A DNA stretch of 55,255 nucleotides from Cellulomonas rhizosphaerae. GTDB taxonomy: Bacteria > Actinomycetota > Actinomycetes > Actinomycetales > Cellulomonadaceae. The notes below the pieces were generated by a model. The model made no database searches. It saw only the letters and a program-made list of their open reading frames with translations, and was not told where the DNA came from. The position numbers were made by a program, and so were the translations under genes. Position 1 is the first letter of the stretch. Every line of letters begins with the position of its first letter. Of the stretch, positions 581 through 40,184 are shown piece after piece. Location: the NCBI RefSeq assembly GCF_003470205.1, contig NZ_QWKP01000211.1, forward strand, positions 1-55,255, written 5' to 3'.

Positions 581-1444
581 ATGACCACCACGCAGCACCT
601 CCAGCGTCCCGAGGGGCGCATCGCCTTCACCGTCGGGGGGCCCGCCGATGCCCCCCTCGTCGTCCTCGTCCCGGGCATGGGCGACCTGCGCAGCACCTGG
701 CGCGAGCTCACCCCGGCCCTCGTCGACGCCGGCTACCGCGTCGCCGTCACCGACCTGCGGGGCCACGGCGACTCCGACACCACGTTCTCCACCCACGGCG
801 ACGTCGCGACCGCGTCCGACGTCGAGGCTCTGCTCGAGCAGCTCGGGGGTGCCGCGGTGCTCGTCGGGAACTCGATGGGCGCGGGCGCGGTCGCACTCGT
901 CGCGGCGGACCGCCCCGACCTGGTAGCAGGCCTCGTCCTGACGGGCCCTTTCCTGCGCGACCCCAAGCTCAGCCGCACGAGCCGCGCGATCATCCGCGGC
1001 TCCTACTCGGTGCTGTTCGCCCGCCTGTGGGGCGCCCGCGTCTGGGCGCGGTACTACCGCGGCACGCTCAACAAGGGCCGGACCGCGCCCTGGCTCGACG
1101 AGCACGTCGCGGACCTGCGCGCCGCGCTGTCCGACCCCGCGCACCTGCGCCAGTTCCGCACGCTGTGCCGCCAGCTCACCCATGCGCCGGTCGAGGCTCG
1201 CGTGGGCGACGTGCAGGCTCCCGCGCTCGCGTTCGTCGGCACGCTCGACCCCGACTTCACCGACCCGGCAGCCGAGGGCGCCTGGATCGGGACCGCGATC
1301 GGGGCGGACGTGGTGATGATCGACGGCGTGGCGCACTACCCGCAGCACCAGGCCCCCGAGGTCGTCGTGCCGCGCACGCTCGCGTTCCTCGCGGACCTGC
1401 CGCGGGCCGAGGCGGGCGCGTTCGCGGCCGGTCTGCGTGCCTAG
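581..1444 (+). CDS. Alpha/beta hydrolase
   Basis: 287-aa alpha/beta-hydrolase fold protein. Visible motifs: oxyanion-loop region VLVPGMGDLRSTW (about 28-40), TDLRGHGDSD (57-66), nucleophile elbow GNSMGAG with Ser98, and a C-terminal Asp (about 220, GTLDPDF) and His (about 252, GVAHYPQ) completing the triad. Substrate cannot be read from sequence; esterase, lipase and haloperoxidase-like enzymes share this layout. The start is the ATG six bases after the -10 box. The last 8 nt overlap the TetR start, so the two are translationally coupled. Confidence 0.88.
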   Translation: MTTTQHLQRPEGRIAFTVGGPADAPLVVLVPGMGDLRSTWRELTPALVDAGYRVAVTDLRGHGDSDTTFSTHGDVATASDVEALLEQLGGAAVLVGNSMGAGAVALVAADRPDLVAGLVLTGPFLRDPKLSRTSRAIIRGSYSVLFARLWGARVWARYYRGTLNKGRTAPWLDEHVADLRAALSDPAHLRQFRTLCRQLTHAPVEARVGDVQAPALAFVGTLDPDFTDPAAEGAWIGTAIGADVVMIDGVAHYPQHQAPEVVVPRTLAFLADLPRAEAGAFAAGLRA

Positions 1445-2027
1445 GGCGGGCCTCGACCGGGCGGTCGTCGTCGGCCTCGCGCTCGACGTCGTCGACGCCG
1501 ACGGCTGGCCCGGGCTCACGCTCGCGGCGGTCGCGGCACGGGCCGGCGTCGCTGTGCCGAGCCTCTACAAGCACGTCGCCGGACTGCCCGCGCTGCGGCT
1601 CGAGGTCGCGGCTGCCTGCATCGACGAGGTGACGGCCGCGCTGACGGGCGCCCGGGGAACGCGTACCGGGGCCGACGCGGTCCGCGCGATGGCCGGCGCC
1701 CTGCGCGCGTACGGGCGGGCGCACCCCGGTCGCTACCTCGCGACCCAGGGCGCATGGGCGGGCGTGGACGGGGCCGACGACGTCCGCCGGGCCGGTGCGG
1801 CCGCGGTCGGGCTGCTCGTGGACGCGGTCGCGCAGCTGGAGGTCCCCGAGGCGCACCGCATCGACGCCGTCCGGTCCGTGCGGGCCGCGGTGCACGGCTT
1901 CGTGCTGCTCGAGATGGACGGCGGGTTCGGCATGCCGGACGACGTGGACGCGAGCTTCGACTACCTCGTCGACCGGCTGGTGTCCGGGCTGGAGGACCCG
2001 AGCAGGTCCCGCAGCCAGCGCAGCTGA
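1437..2027 (+). CDS. TetR/AcrR family transcriptional regulator (WHG-type)
   Basis: 196-aa regulator. The N-terminal HTH is LTLAAVAARAGVAVPSLYKHV (about 27-47), the classical TetR recognition segment ending in Y-KHV; the C-terminal half, with HGFVLLEMDGGFG, resembles the WHG ligand-binding domain. It starts with GTG inside the end of the hydrolase gene (8-nt overlap). It is expected to repress its own operon through the palindrome at 558-572 and to be released by a hydrolase-related ligand (inference). Its 3' end overlaps the convergent esterase gene by 67 nt. Confidence 0.9.
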   Translation: MPRAGLDRAVVVGLALDVVDADGWPGLTLAAVAARAGVAVPSLYKHVAGLPALRLEVAAACIDEVTAALTGARGTRTGADAVRAMAGALRAYGRAHPGRYLATQGAWAGVDGADDVRRAGAAAVGLLVDAVAQLEVPEAHRIDAVRSVRAAVHGFVLLEMDGGFGMPDDVDASFDYLVDRLVSGLEDPSRSRSQRS

Positions 2028-17271: not shown

Positions 17272-17387
17272 CCGGCCACCGCCCGATCCCTGACCCAACC
17301 GGCGACCGGCGGGCCCAGCTGCTCGCCGCGCTCGAGTTCGGTGTCTGCCCCCTCGTCTCGTCGAACGACGAGGACGGTGCGGCATGA
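17268..17387 (+). CDS. Very small hypothetical protein
   Basis: 39 aa, from an ATGA overlap with the exonuclease gene to an ATGA overlap with the next gene; that exact tiling is the main evidence. It is not recognised; it contains a helix RRAQLLAALEFGVC and an acidic end. Confidence 0.55.
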   Translation: MTGHRPIPDPTGDRRAQLLAALEFGVCPLVSSNDEDGAA

Positions 17388-17596
17388 GCGCGGACCGTCT
17401 TCCCCAGGACATGCAGGACGCCCTCGACTCCGCGATCAAGCGCGAGCTGCGCGCCGAGGACGCCTGGGAGGACGAGCGTGACGCCGCGTACCGGCGTGCA
17501 CGTGGCCTCGGAGCCGCGTTCGTCCTCGTAGCCGCCGTCATCTTCATCGCGGCGCTCACGACCGTGGTCGCCGTCATCGTGGATGCGCTGCTGTGA
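17384..17596 (+). CDS. Small single-pass membrane protein
   Basis: 70 aa: a charged, probably coiled N-terminal half ([20 protein letters not shown]) and one C-terminal transmembrane helix ([20 protein letters not shown]). The orientation by charge is N-in. Function unknown; it overlaps the HNH fusion gene by 4 nt. Confidence 0.68.
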
Positions 17597-18762
17597 GCGC
17601 CTTCGGAGACCCGCGCCTCCCCCAGCGGTTCTGGGACAAGGTCGCCGTCAACGCCGAGACCGGGTGCTGGGAGTGGACCGCGAGCCTCAACGGCTCCGGC
17701 TACGGCCAGTTCGGGATCAACCACCACCCCGTGCTCGCGCACCGACACGCGTTCTCGACACTGGTCGGCCCCATCGGCCCCGGGCTCGACCTCGACCACC
17801 TCTGCCGCGTGCGGCTCTGCTGCAACCCCGCTCACGTCGAGCCCGTGACGCGCCTTGAGCACGTCCACCGTTCGCCGTACGTGATCTCAGCCCAGAACGC
17901 CGCCAAGACGCACTGCCCGGCGGGTCACGAGTACGACGAGCTGAACACGCTGCGCAATGCGCAGGGGCACCGGTTCTGCCGCGCATGCAAGCGCGCGTCG
18001 ACACGGCGCTCCCGCGCCGCCCGGGCGCTCGCCGCCACGGCCCTTGCTGGCGTCGCCCTGGTCGGCCTCTCGCTGCCCGCGGCGGCCGGCGGGGACCACG
18101 ACGGAACGATCCGGCTCGGCTGGGTCCTGCCTGACGGCGGTACGCCTGCCCGAGTTACGTGGCCGCAGCCGGTGTTCACCGGCCAGTGCGGCGTCTGGGT
18201 CCAGTGGGACCTCTACCCGTACAGCACGGACGCGGAGCGCGCCCGCACCGACGCCCTGCTCGACGACGGCCTCCTCACGTACGGCGAGGACCACGGGTGG
18301 GCGAAGTCCTGGACCTTCGAGGAGCAGCCGCCATGCGTGACACCGACCCAGTCCCCCAGCCCGACACAGAGCCCGACGCCTACAGCGACGGCGGAGCCGA
18401 GTGCGACCCCGACACCATCCGTGACGGCCTCCGAACCTGCCCCCGAGCCGACTGCGCCCAGCCCATCACCGACCGGCCCTTCCCCTTCTGCGCCCACCTC
18501 ACACCCATCGAGCTCGCCTACCTCGACTCCATCCCCCACCAGCGTGCCGACCGACTCCCCGTCGCCGTCGACCACGTCTTCGGTCCCGAGCCCGACGCCG
18601 ACATCCGGCGTGCCCTCGGCGACGCCCTCGGACGGTCCTGAACCGTCCGCACACGTCCTCGCCGTCACTGGCGTCGACCCAGGCGTCGGCCTCATGGCCG
18701 TCGCGATCCTCTCCGTCCTCGGCGTCATCTGCTGGGGCCTCTCACGAAAGGCACGATCGTGA
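17593..18762 (+). CDS. HNH endonuclease fused to a secreted LAxTG-anchored surface protein
   Basis: 389 aa, one uninterrupted frame. Residues 1-140 form a full HNH nuclease: [23 protein letters not shown] (His69, Asn78, His81), then the C-terminal zinc knuckle CPAGHEYD...CRACKR. Immediately after, [20 protein letters not shown] plus LPAAAGG is a signal-peptide-like segment (about 138-166). A compact exported domain (168-240), a Pro/Ser/Thr linker (242-350) and LAVTG (356-360), TM helix and basic tail follow: a sortase-E-type anchor. No in-frame ATG/GTG/TTG starts the second part. Its linker overlaps another gene in a different frame. Confidence 0.8.
18333..18641 (+). CDS. Zinc-finger-like protein encoded inside the surface-protein linker
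   Basis: 102 aa, entirely nested in another frame of 17593-18762. GAGGAG at 18319-18324 precedes the ATG by 8 nt. GC at third positions is clearly higher in this frame than in the Pro/Ser/Thr-coding frame, the normal mark of a real gene here. [21 protein letters not shown] (split: two Cys, then C-A-H) followed by [13 protein letters not shown] resembles small actinophage zinc fingers of the type C-x(2-4)-C...RPFxFCxxH. Function unknown; it was probably the original gene of this stretch. Confidence 0.68.
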
Positions 18763-18962
18763 CCACTCCCACGAGCGAGCCCGAACCGCTCCTCACACCG
18801 GGCGAAGTCGCCCACCTGTTCCGCGTCGACCCGAAGACGGTCACGCGCTGGGCCCAGGCTGGCAAGCTCCCGTGCCTGCGGACCCTCGGCGGACACCGCC
18901 GCTTCCGCGACCGGGACGTCCGCGCCCTCATCGCCTCCACCACGAGCGGGGGTGCGCGATGA
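18759..18962 (+). CDS. BldC-like MerR-type HTH DNA-binding protein
   Basis: 67 aa: [39 protein letters not shown] and RDRDVRALI make up the complete winged HTH of the BldC/helix-turn-helix-17 family, which binds DNA as head-to-tail oligomers. It is the second such protein in the prophage (the other is at 12821). GTG start overlaps the previous stop by 4 nt. Confidence 0.85.
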
Positions 18963-19174
18963 GCGCCTTCTCCGGCCCCCAGGGCAAGGGCTCGGCCCGC
19001 GCGCACCGCGAGGTGAAGCGTGCTGAGGCGGAGTCCCGCGCCGACCTGTTCGACGCCGAGGTCCTACGCGTCATGTTCGAGCAGAACGTGGAGCGTCCGA
19101 CCGCGCGTCGCGTCGTCATGGCGACGCGACGCATGGACCGGCACCTCGCCGCACGGCAGGCGGTGGCGGCATGA
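18959..19174 (+). CDS. Hypothetical basic helical protein
   Basis: 71 aa, highly charged: AHREVKRAEAESRADLFDAE and ARRVVMATRRMDRHLAARQ suggest two helices. Not recognised. ATGA overlaps at both ends. Confidence 0.65.
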   Translation: MSAFSGPQGKGSARAHREVKRAEAESRADLFDAEVLRVMFEQNVERPTARRVVMATRRMDRHLAARQAVAA

Positions 19175-19710
19175 GCCCGAGCGCCCGCGTCCTGAGTGGC
19201 GTCTTCCTCGAGTTCGAGGGCCAGCCCGTCTCGGCGTCCGGACTGTTCTGGGGCGAGTTCGCGCCGTGCGGCTGCCTCTGCGGCGCCATGACCGTCGACC
19301 GCGGGAACGGCGACGTCCTGCTCACCGCCGACCAGGCGCGCCTCGACATGAACGCCGGGATCAAAGCGCTCGCCGAGCGCAACGCCGAGGACGGGTTCGT
19401 GTTCCGGCTCATGTCCCAGGAGCAGTACCGCGCAACCCCCTTCGGATGCGAGCACGAACCGAAGTGGGGTGTCGTCGAGATCAAGGCTCCCGAGGGCCAC
19501 GCGTGGGCCACGACCGACCGGTGGCACTCCGGCCGCAGGACCCGTCGCCGACACATCGTCCCCGAGGCTGCGGTCGACGCCTGGGCCGATGTCCCGCCCG
19601 CCCTCTGTGGCGCGGTCCGCTCGCGCCACGCCGCCTCGTGGAGCACAGACCGAAGCCACACCTCGGACACCGTGACGTGCCGCAAGTGCGAAGCGGCGGT
19701 GGCGGCATGA
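19171..19710 (+). CDS. Hypothetical protein
   Basis: 179 aa, not recognised. CGCLCG (about 33-38) and the C-terminal TCRKCEA could bind metal; the middle (DRGNGDVLLTADQARLDMNA) looks globular. Part of the coupled early train. Confidence 0.66.
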   Translation: MSPSARVLSGVFLEFEGQPVSASGLFWGEFAPCGCLCGAMTVDRGNGDVLLTADQARLDMNAGIKALAERNAEDGFVFRLMSQEQYRATPFGCEHEPKWGVVEIKAPEGHAWATTDRWHSGRRTRRRHIVPEAAVDAWADVPPALCGAVRSRHAASWSTDRSHTSDTVTCRKCEAAVAA

Positions 19711-38651: not shown

Positions 38652-40184
38652 GTGAGCCTCACCATGTGGGAGCACGCAGCTCGCGCGTTCGAGGCCCGCG
38701 CCGACCCGTGGCCCACGCCCGGTGTCCTCGCGAAGGCCATCGAGCCCGGCACCATCCAGACCGCCGCCCTCGACGTCATCGACCAGGCGCTCGTCGACGT
38801 CGAAGCCGGGCGCTGCGACCGGCTCATCATCAGCATGCCCCCACAGGAGGGGAAGTCGACCCGCGTCACCAAGACCGGGCCGCTGTGGTTCCTGCTCCGC
38901 AACCCGAACCGGCGCATCGTCGTCGCGTCCTACGCCGAATCCCTCGCCATGGAGTTCGGCCGCGACATCCGCGGGTACATCACCTCGAACGCCGGCCAGG
39001 ACGACACCCTCGACCTCGGGCTACGGATCGCGGACGACAACGGCGCCGTCACCGCGTGGAAGCTGCGGCCCGACCTCGGCATCGGTGGTGTCCGGTCCGT
39101 CGGCATCGCCGGTGGCCTGACCGGCCGCCCCGCGGACGTCCTGTTCATCGACGACCCGATCAGCAACCTCGAGCAGGCCGAGTCGAAGACGTACCGCGAC
39201 CGCGCGTGGTCGTTCTGGACGTCCGTCGGCCGAACCCGCCTCGCCCCGGGCGCCCCGGTCGTCCTGATCCTGACCAGGTGGCACCACGACGATCTCGCCG
39301 GGCGGATCCTCGCCTCCGAGGAAGGTCACCGGTGGCGGGTCATCAACATCCCCGCCCAGGCTGAACACAAGCCCGAGCGCGGCGAGAGCGACGTCCTCGG
39401 TCGCGAGCCTGGTCAGTGGATGGGGTCCGCGCGCCGCGACGAACGCACCGGCGCTGAGCGCTCCCCCGACGACTGGGAGCGGACCCGTCGCGAGGTCGGG
39501 CCCCGCGTCTGGAACAGCCTCTACCAGGGGCGCCCGTCGCCGGACGCCGGTGACCTGTTCCCCGCCGAGTGGTCCCGGTACTCGACTCCGCTGCACGTCG
39601 TGCACGCCGACGGATCCTGCTGGGTGCCCGGCACCGACCACGAGATCGTCCAGTCTTGGGACCTCGCGTTCAAGGACACGAAGTCCTCCGACTACGTCGT
39701 CGGGCAGGTGTGGTTGCGGGTCGGGGTCGATGCCTACCTGCTCGACCAGGTCCGTGCCCGCCTGTCGTTCACCGCGACCCTCGCCGCGATCCGGGCCCTG
39801 TCCGCGAAGTGGCCGCAGGCGGCCGCGAAGTTCGTTGAGGACAAGGCGAACGGGCCCGCCGTCATCAACGCGCTCGCCCGGCAGATCCCCGGCCTCATCC
39901 CCGTGGAACCCGAGGGGTCGAAGTTCGCGCGCGCCGCAGCGATCTCCCCGTTCACGCACTCCGGCAACGTGCACCTGCCCGAGCCGGAGCTGCTGCCCAA
40001 CGTCGAGGACCTCCTCGAAGAAGCCAAGGCGTTCCCGAACTGGGCGCACGACGACACGGTCGACGCCCTGTCGCAGGCCATCAACCGCCTCCTGCTGTGG
40101 CCGCTGCACGACCCCGACGACGACACCGTCACGTCGGACGACCTGATCGACGACGACCCCCACTCGTGGGCCGGCGGCTACTGA
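38652..40184 (+). CDS. terL: Terminase large subunit
   Basis: 510 aa. ATPase: Walker A variant SMPPQEGKS (61-69), Walker B DVLFIDDP (162-169), LTRWHHDDLAGR coupling motif. Nuclease (RNase H-like): QSWDLAF (Asp about 334), FVEDKANGP, and HDDTVDALSQ with the final Asp pair. It drives DNA packaging. GTG 38652 is used; ATG 38664 is an alternative start without better SD. The stop overlaps the SD of the portal gene. Confidence 0.95.
   Translation: MSLTMWEHAARAFEARADPWPTPGVLAKAIEPGTIQTAALDVIDQALVDVEAGRCDRLIISMPPQEGKSTRVTKTGPLWFLLRNPNRRIVVASYAESLAMEFGRDIRGYITSNAGQDDTLDLGLRIADDNGAVTAWKLRPDLGIGGVRSVGIAGGLTGRPADVLFIDDPISNLEQAESKTYRDRAWSFWTSVGRTRLAPGAPVVLILTRWHHDDLAGRILASEEGHRWRVINIPAQAEHKPERGESDVLGREPGQWMGSARRDERTGAERSPDDWERTRREVGPRVWNSLYQGRPSPDAGDLFPAEWSRYSTPLHVVHADGSCWVPGTDHEIVQSWDLAFKDTKSSDYVVGQVWLRVGVDAYLLDQVRARLSFTATLAAIRALSAKWPQAAAKFVEDKANGPAVINALARQIPGLIPVEPEGSKFARAAAISPFTHSGNVHLPEPELLPNVEDLLEEAKAFPNWAHDDTVDALSQAINRLLLWPLHDPDDDTVTSDDLIDDDPHSWAGGY

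Follow-up and report, generated by a model that had tools for sequence, protein, structure and literature searches.

Can a stretch of phage DNA that encodes the stalk of a wall-anchored surface protein also encode a second protein in another reading frame? This question is raised by one locus of the window, the whole 55,255-nucleotide stretch from Cellulomonas rhizosphaerae analysed here (contig NZ_QWKP01000211.1), for which an earlier note had proposed that a zinc-finger gene and the linker of a surface protein share 309 bp. The locus is also present in IMG/VR, and terminase, head and tape-measure genes lie downstream at 38652, 45264 and 50292, which is why we regard the window as tailed-phage prophage; upstream of the locus there is an RNase_T-type exonuclease gene. 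Its features are collected in Table 1, and the loci compared with it carry numbers beginning with L.

Table 1. Features of the surface-protein ORF and of the ORF nested in it (positions in the window)
Feature	Position	Strand	Remarks
Outer ORF	17593..18762	+	389 aa, GTG start; HNH endonuclease domain fused in frame to cell-wall-anchored surface protein
HNH endonuclease part of outer ORF	17629..17994	+	FWDKV to CRACKR; Pfam and PHROG matches
Signal-peptide/TM-like segment of outer ORF	18007..18090	+	read from the sequence by eye
Ectodomain A	18091..18336	+	82 aa, W-P-Q...C-G-x-W-x-Q-x-D-x-Y ... C
GAGGAG, Shine-Dalgarno-like	18319..18324	+	8 nt ahead of nested ATG; equivalents at eight other phage-type linkers
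Nested ORF	18333..18641	+	ATG 18333, TGA 18639-18641, 102 aa, -1 frame relative to outer ORF
P/S/T-rich linker (stalk) of surface protein	18337..18657	+	108 residues
Cys/His region of nested ORF	18438..18497	+	CPRADC from inner residue 36, RPFPFCAH from residue 48
Inner motif 1	18582..18629	+	GPEPD..[IV]R.[AT]LG; common to window, L041, L092, L120, L121
LAVTG sortase-type motif, hydrophobic stretch, basic tail (SRKARS), stop	18658..18762	+	LAVTG at 18658-18672
Next gene, MerR/excisionase-type HTH	18759..18962	+	HTH_17 3.5e-13; phrog_66 3.7e-11

The surface ORF proved longer than the earlier note had implied, since it starts with an HNH domain. By the curated Pfam cut-off this N-terminal part is an HNH endonuclease (HNH_3, PF13392, E 6.3e-9, 35.8 bits against a cut-off of 24.8), and phrog_826 matches residues 8-148 at 2.9e-52. 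The AF2 model of ectodomain A had a pLDDT of 88 and a pTM of 0.78; a fold search against PDB and BFVD gave no match at E <= 0.001, and no Pfam or PHROG family matched ectodomain A (window, L041) or the ectodomain B (L120) described below. As had been read before, the P/S/T linker ends past the nested stop in a LAVTG anchor with a hydrophobic stretch and SRKARS behind it, and the same layout of LAVTG-type anchor, hydrophobic stretch and positive tail is found in relatives; by sorting motif, hydrophobic stretch and basic tail the outer protein is a sortase-anchored surface protein. Where a start codon shortly before the signal peptide would be looked for, the window has the HNH domain, and no ATG, GTG or TTG lies in frame between this domain and the signal-like segment. 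L041 has about 100 residues ahead of its hydrophobic segment, and in L092 this segment is close to the N-terminus. The HNH fusion occupies 17593-18090, and L041 (genome G568) has a different N-terminus with no HNH part; possibly a homing-type insertion, or a deletion, took the start of the surface gene. The start of the following HTH gene overlaps the outer stop by 4 nt.

Re-reading of the sequence confirmed the coordinates, strand and features that the earlier note had given for the nested ORF, as well as the GAGGAG in front of it; the ORF runs from an ATG to a TGA and encodes 102 residues. It is complete, lies out of frame with the outer ORF and has initiation signals of its own, and its stop lies 16 nt upstream of the LAVTG anchor. 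The inner protein is acidic (pI 4.4), shows no signal segment by eye and gave a poor AF2 model (pLDDT 57.5, pTM 0.22) with one fair helix at residues 89-100. Pfam and PHROG scans of eight of the nine inner proteins considered below (all except that of L116) found no convincing match, the best having an E of 0.0087. This match, of the window's inner protein to phrog_22889, was rejected: across 220 family genomes it led to two places at E <= 0.001, neither of them in the window's genome.

The earlier note had also pointed to third-position GC, which is indeed higher in the inner frame (GC1-3 of 0.757/0.534/0.864, against 0.529/0.873/0.765 for the outer frame over the same DNA), but as evidence for coding it fails, being forced by the outer protein. 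Each inner codon consists of the outer bases (o3,o1,o2), and the inner third base is the outer second base; Pro, Thr, Ala and TCN-Ser codons carry C in second position, so that a high inner GC3 necessarily follows. Inner stops, moreover, are possible only where a T-ending codon precedes AGY-Ser or a codon for D, E, K, N or AGR-Arg. Both the long open inner frame and its GC3 are therefore by-products of the codon composition of the stalk, and we dropped them as signs of coding. Raised AT at outer third positions was dropped as well: within P/S/T codons it averaged 0.13 in nine phage-type linkers vs 0.04 in 16 host-type ones (p 4e-4), and anchors outside the nested part show the same. A Shine-Dalgarno-like run (SD) with start and ORF arises in 19% of synonymous reshufflings of the window's linker, and it is the recurrence at other loci that lifts such signs above chance.

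These other loci were gathered through the surface protein and through the inner frame. A first search with ectodomain A gave 11 places besides the window, seven of which were read (L020, L022, L023 and L024 were not), and from a second search L032-L036 were read and L037 was not. The relatives by ectodomain A are L041, L015, L016, L017, L032 and L042, and an ectodomain relative lies on a contig of Sanguibacter suaedae (Micrococcales); L017, which has no visible anchor, and L033-L036 were left out of the linker set. The latter four, from another family of the order, are large proteins with copies of a CG.W.Q.D.Y element resembling ectodomain A. L041, from the same genus as the window, has its own N-terminus, a P/S/T linker and the anchor LAHTG, and its inner frame ends in ..VYGPEPDSDVRRTLGDALRRTALRDD, comparable to the inner C-terminus of the window. 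A profile of the inner C-terminus led to L053 (the locus of L092), which carries a different ectodomain, B; comparison of the profiles of A and B (probability 1.8%, E 0.028, 21 columns) suggests that the two are not detectably related. Ectodomain B is present in 43 of 81 genomes of the genus (46 places; 20 loci read), in five Microbacterium phage records and at six viral-contig loci. Its pattern in L092-L111, L112-L115 and L116-L121 reads SD.PTPY...H.H.N...W.G.SF.PWS..G...C..WVQ...EHFGEGGQ.PVC.

Both inner motifs (V.[IV]..FDP..YL and GPEPD..VRRALG) occur together in L120 and L121, with C-x2-C-x2-C behind them. L095, in which a stop comes shortly past the ectodomain and close to the end of a contig, and L101, L109 and L110, in which the linker runs off the contig, enter no count. 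The label host-type was checked through 10 neighbour genes of the 17 linkers tested and is assumed for the rest; eight of these neighbours have non-phage Pfam matches (SpoIIE, T2SSE, acyl-CoA oxidase, RNB and four AIR-synthase/FGAR-AT, i.e. PurL-type), one is an antitoxin and one is without a match. Ectodomain B genes thus adjoin PurL-type genes at four of the ten neighbours. Weak inner matches were also read and rejected by eye as other proteins or frames: all eight places besides the window from the first genome search, and seven of nine besides the window, G568 and G169 from a later one.

Start sites were scored in 14 phage-type and 17 host-type linkers (L114 being outside this sample) as an SD-like run, 4-10 nt, and an ATG or GTG that opens an ORF of 60 codons or more within the first 25 codons of the linker, with synonymous reshuffling as the null. 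In the inner phase such sites occur at 9 of the 14 phage-type loci, where reshuffling expects 3.24, the phage-type group and the P/S/T class having been defined by eye after the loci had been seen. The nine positives (window, L041, L092, L093, L094, L116, L117, L120 and L121) are all the P/S/T linkers of this by-eye class; the five negatives have E/P-rich or other linkers (L118, L119) or long other ectodomains (L112, L113, L115). The other phase yields none at phage-type loci (0.20 expected), and none is found among the 17 host-type linkers, where 0.24 are expected and the zero thus marks an absence, not selection against such sites. The inner frame had brought in the window and L092, and the surface protein the other seven P/S/T phage loci; for these seven the product of reshuffling probabilities, calculated by hand, is about 8e-4, and it includes the close kin L120 and L121. 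An earlier count, before these two had joined, stood at 7/8. At all nine loci the start codon lies 5 or 8 nt from the SD, and in the outer protein the start leaves the footprints E-E-Q-P-P-C, Q-E-P-T-W, K-E-P-x-P-C, M-E-T-P-C and E-E-P-T-W. The Cys of the footprint alone can have another reason, since the second Cys is also present, without a start, in host-type L103 and L107.

The alternative that survives best, which we regard as unlikely while giving it real weight, is that there is no inner gene: linker modules would have been shared or exchanged, the common stretch would be inherited outer-frame DNA and its openness would come from the P/S/T codons. Such an ancestry leaves unexplained why SD and start stand at all nine P/S/T phage linkers, where about 3.2 are expected. 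The inner sequence was evaluated against a recoding null in which codons are reshuffled with the outer protein and its codon stock preserved. Among pairs of 26 linkers, the mean inner z was 1.51 for phage-phage pairs (35, with L120-L121 left out), 0.03 for phage-host pairs (153) and -0.06 for host-host pairs (136), with 7, 2 and 1 pairs above 3; in the third frame, used as a control, the means were 0.67, 0.21 and 0.43, with 2, 1 and 3 pairs above 3. With leave-one-out profiles, the number of recodings out of 3000 that scored as high as the real inner frame was 0 for the window, L041 and L092 (two profiles each), 1 for L120 and 4 for L121. With four-member profiles, L094, L116 and L117 each had 0/3000 recodings as high as the real sequence; with a profile of L120 and L121 alone the counts were 958, 46 and 66 of 3000, and L120 scored from L094, L116 and L117 gave 52/3000. 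L093 does not align (2895/3000 for motif 1, 23/3000 for the motif-2 set).

A rerun with other segments and another seed gave, of 2000 recodings, 0 and 2 for the window (the latter from the profile of L092, L120 and L121), 1 for L041, 0 and 0 for L092, 3 for L120, 0 for L094, 23 for L116 and 0 for L117, the third-frame control of the same nine runs lying between z -0.5 and 2.8. Four related host linkers without a start, L097, L098, L099 and L104, reached inner z values of 3.1, 3.1, 3.9 and 4.5 (0-3/2000), so that shared descent can apparently produce some of the signal, as the reading without an inner gene would have it; the other seven control runs stayed at 0.2-1.4.

Islands of similarity were assessed in 10 chosen phage-type pairs and 8 control pairs, with 300 recodings each. 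No recoding was as good for window-L041 (41/48), window-L092 (41/48, an island of 16 codons) and L041-L092 (44/48); one was as good for window-L120 (38/48) and L117-L121 (40/48), and three for L092-L120 (40/48). All six above-chance islands sit on an inner motif, and the motif-1 islands of window-L092 and L041-L092 join loci with ectodomains A and B. Shared ancestry does not explain why the inner C-terminal motif should be the shared part in precisely these two pairs; in its favour, the outer reading of the L041-L092 island is equally similar, and islands of related host linkers are also rarely matched (L097-L099 5/300, L097-L104 6/300). L108-L111 gave 13/300 and the other five controls 93 to 283, and four phage-type islands were not above chance (L041-L121 43/300, L116-L117 207, L094-L120 138, L094-L116 75). 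As judged from these comparisons, inner sequence recurs more than the outer protein and its codon stock would require, with L093 and the related host linkers as caveats.

Substitution counts and four-fold sites in these few sequences revealed no constraint specific to the inner frame, a result consistent with inherited outer-frame DNA. Differences between the window and L041 fall 38/33/29 on the inner codon positions (96 codons), with no third-position excess, and identity is 38/96 in the inner and 43/90 in the outer frame. At four-fold sites the nested part is identical in 23/41, 23/53 or 15/23, depending on the alignment and the part taken, which does not differ from the ectodomain (15/32; p 0.27-0.82). 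Between L120 and L121, differences by outer position are 9/9/11 in the nested part and 5/6/10 in its C-terminal part, so that the outer third position changes most and with it the inner first base. Parsimony changes in motif 1 (6/6/7 by position) fit either frame (p 0.34, 0.64); inner identity there is higher in 5, equal in 4 and lower in 1 of 10 pairs. Over motif 2, all ten of the ten pairs are more alike in the outer frame than in the inner one, which again suits ancestry, and these identity counts are hard to weigh because low-complexity S/P/T text is alike by composition. The invariant inner Phe (TTC) of motif 2 lies under outer residues S, S, T, T and G, with a T-ending codon in 5/5, and the persistence of T-ending codons under changing outer residues is what inherited outer-frame DNA does not account for.

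These comparisons make it most likely that the nested ORF belongs to a real overprinted gene family, found in early modules of temperate phages of high-GC actinobacteria and matched by no Pfam or PHROG family. The recurrence of SD and start and of the inner motifs across loci supports the earlier note's view of a nested gene overprinted on a disordered P/S/T linker, and we think it probable that ribosomes read this DNA in two frames, giving the surface protein and the product of a nested gene born on its stalk. That the internal Shine-Dalgarno sequence instead drives -1 ribosomal frameshifting, by which some surface proteins would get an inner tail and lose the anchor, appears very improbable: the inner frame is indeed -1 relative to the outer one, with a purine-rich SD-like run just upstream at all nine loci, but a start codon kept 5 or 8 nt from the SD at every one of them would be needless for frameshifting. 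Least credible of all is a DNA or RNA element such as a binding site or regulatory structure, which would suit a conservation that is visible at the level of DNA and extends to all three codon positions, but 17300-19300 contains no Rfam family at gathering thresholds, and the motif-1 inner changes among window, L041 and L092 (A/S, I/V, R/H, A/T, D/A) are mild in four of five cases.

The identity proposed for the inner protein fared less well than its existence. The Cys and His letters of the supposed zinc finger are present in the window, but the ligand set is not conserved among relatives: Cys is absent from the inner proteins of L041, L094, L116 and L117 and occurs once in that of L093, and in L092, L120 and L121 the C-x2-C elements are located after the GPEPD motif, not before it. 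The pattern is also missing in the closest relative, L041, and a zinc finger is thus not supported.

Concerning the direction of origin, the earlier note had suggested that the stalk of the surface protein may have arisen through out-of-frame reading of a neighbouring gene. A standalone inner gene was searched for in phages (no significant match, best E about 1), in plasmids (no significant match, E 9), in viral contigs (own locus only) and in the genomes searched (no significant match), and a motif-1 profile run on five genomes found only the nested copies in G000, G568 and G169 and nothing in G121 and G573. Relatives with one frame only were found in one sense: L118, L119 and the host-type linkers have the outer without the inner frame, and the inner without the outer was met nowhere. 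Since host homologues have the stalk without SD and start, and these searches revealed no inner gene standing alone, the stalk probably came first and the nested gene later, the reverse of the direction suggested before, as read from distribution and not from a tree.

In the mechanism we propose, a ribosome starting at 17593 would make the surface protein, whose P/S/T stalk would lift the 82-residue ectodomain off the wall to which LAVTG anchors it, and a second ribosome would bind the Shine-Dalgarno located in the last ectodomain codons and start at the nested ATG 18333. The inner product would be a 102-residue acidic protein, mostly disordered, with a C-terminal helix carrying GPEPD..[IV]R.[AT]LG.AL. 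Given a pre-existing stalk, two signals would suffice to open a new gene, an SD within the codons of E-E, K-E or Q-E and a start within those of P-C or T-W, because stalk codons rarely make -1-frame stops. More tentatively, with a confidence that stops just short of the halfway mark, we suggest that in high-GC phages the P/S/T stalks of wall-anchored proteins, with their few -1-frame stops, serve as a nursery in which nested genes are born, and that one such family, which has a Shine-Dalgarno of its own and two C-terminal motifs, has become distributed among temperate phages under two unrelated ectodomains.

Among 20 chosen context genes we found integrase (L091, L122), repressor (L091, L043, L120), metalloprotease (L091, L122), ParB (L091, L043), anti-repressor (L123, L117), excisionase (L117), RecT and DNA methyltransferase (L123) and exonuclease (L123, L116), so that the neighbourhoods are lysogeny or early modules. 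Our guess is that the two proteins are produced early or during lysogeny, with a role in superinfection or host takeover, and that the inner one may be a small cytoplasmic partner acting through its C-terminal helix.

To our knowledge, few cases are established outside small viruses in which a gene lies wholly within another frame of the same strand, and reviewed sets of overprinted virus genes reportedly concern mostly viruses of eukaryotes. The nearest phage precedent is the spanin pair of lambda, in which Rz1 is embedded in the +1 frame of Rz, likewise a gene wholly inside another frame of a phage envelope-protein gene (PMC6139136). Whereas Rz1, read in the +1 frame within a lysis gene, is a lipoprotein of the outer membrane, the window's inner protein lacks a signal segment by eye and uses the -1 frame of a stalk of the sortase type, at an early/lysogeny locus of phages whose hosts are Gram-positive actinobacteria. 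In excerpts on overprinted de novo virus genes, which resemble the present case in setting a new frame on an older one, viral overlap regions are described as enriched in Arg, Ser and Pro and in the codons TCG, CCC and CCG, with stop-poor composition proposed as a contributing cause of overprinted frames (PMC6195259), and disorder is proposed to relieve conflict between overlapping frames (PMC8227390). Here, unlike in those genes, the older frame is the P/S/T stalk of a wall-anchored protein in dsDNA phages. Sortase-anchored (LPxTG-type) proteins share with the outer protein the signal segment, ectodomain, P/S/T linker, L-A/P-x-T-G, hydrophobic stretch and basic tail; unlike theirs, the linker here carries a second frame, and ectodomains A and B have no Pfam or PHROG family. 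Annotation programs tend to drop nested genes, as an excerpt of PMC8665328 states, and titles and abstract openings in the literature yielded nothing on genes nested in phage surface-protein stalks. The principle of overprinting is known; its place, in the stalk of a wall protein, and the protein family are new.

The locus offers a repeated case with a simple compositional cause, applicable to Pro/Ser/Thr linkers of any high-GC genome, and also a warning, as GC3 and openness are worthless as signs of coding in such linkers and start-site recurrence measured against synonymous reshuffling is informative. Two smaller observations concern repeats within the linkers. In L092, the inner frame of 1148-1477 (minus strand) contains VDEPGPEPDA twice (VDEPGPEPDAQPELVDEPGPEPDA), as if a duplication had kept both frames, and in L116, from 3324 on, outer TTEP/TEEP repeats read as inner AHDG/RGAD repeats.
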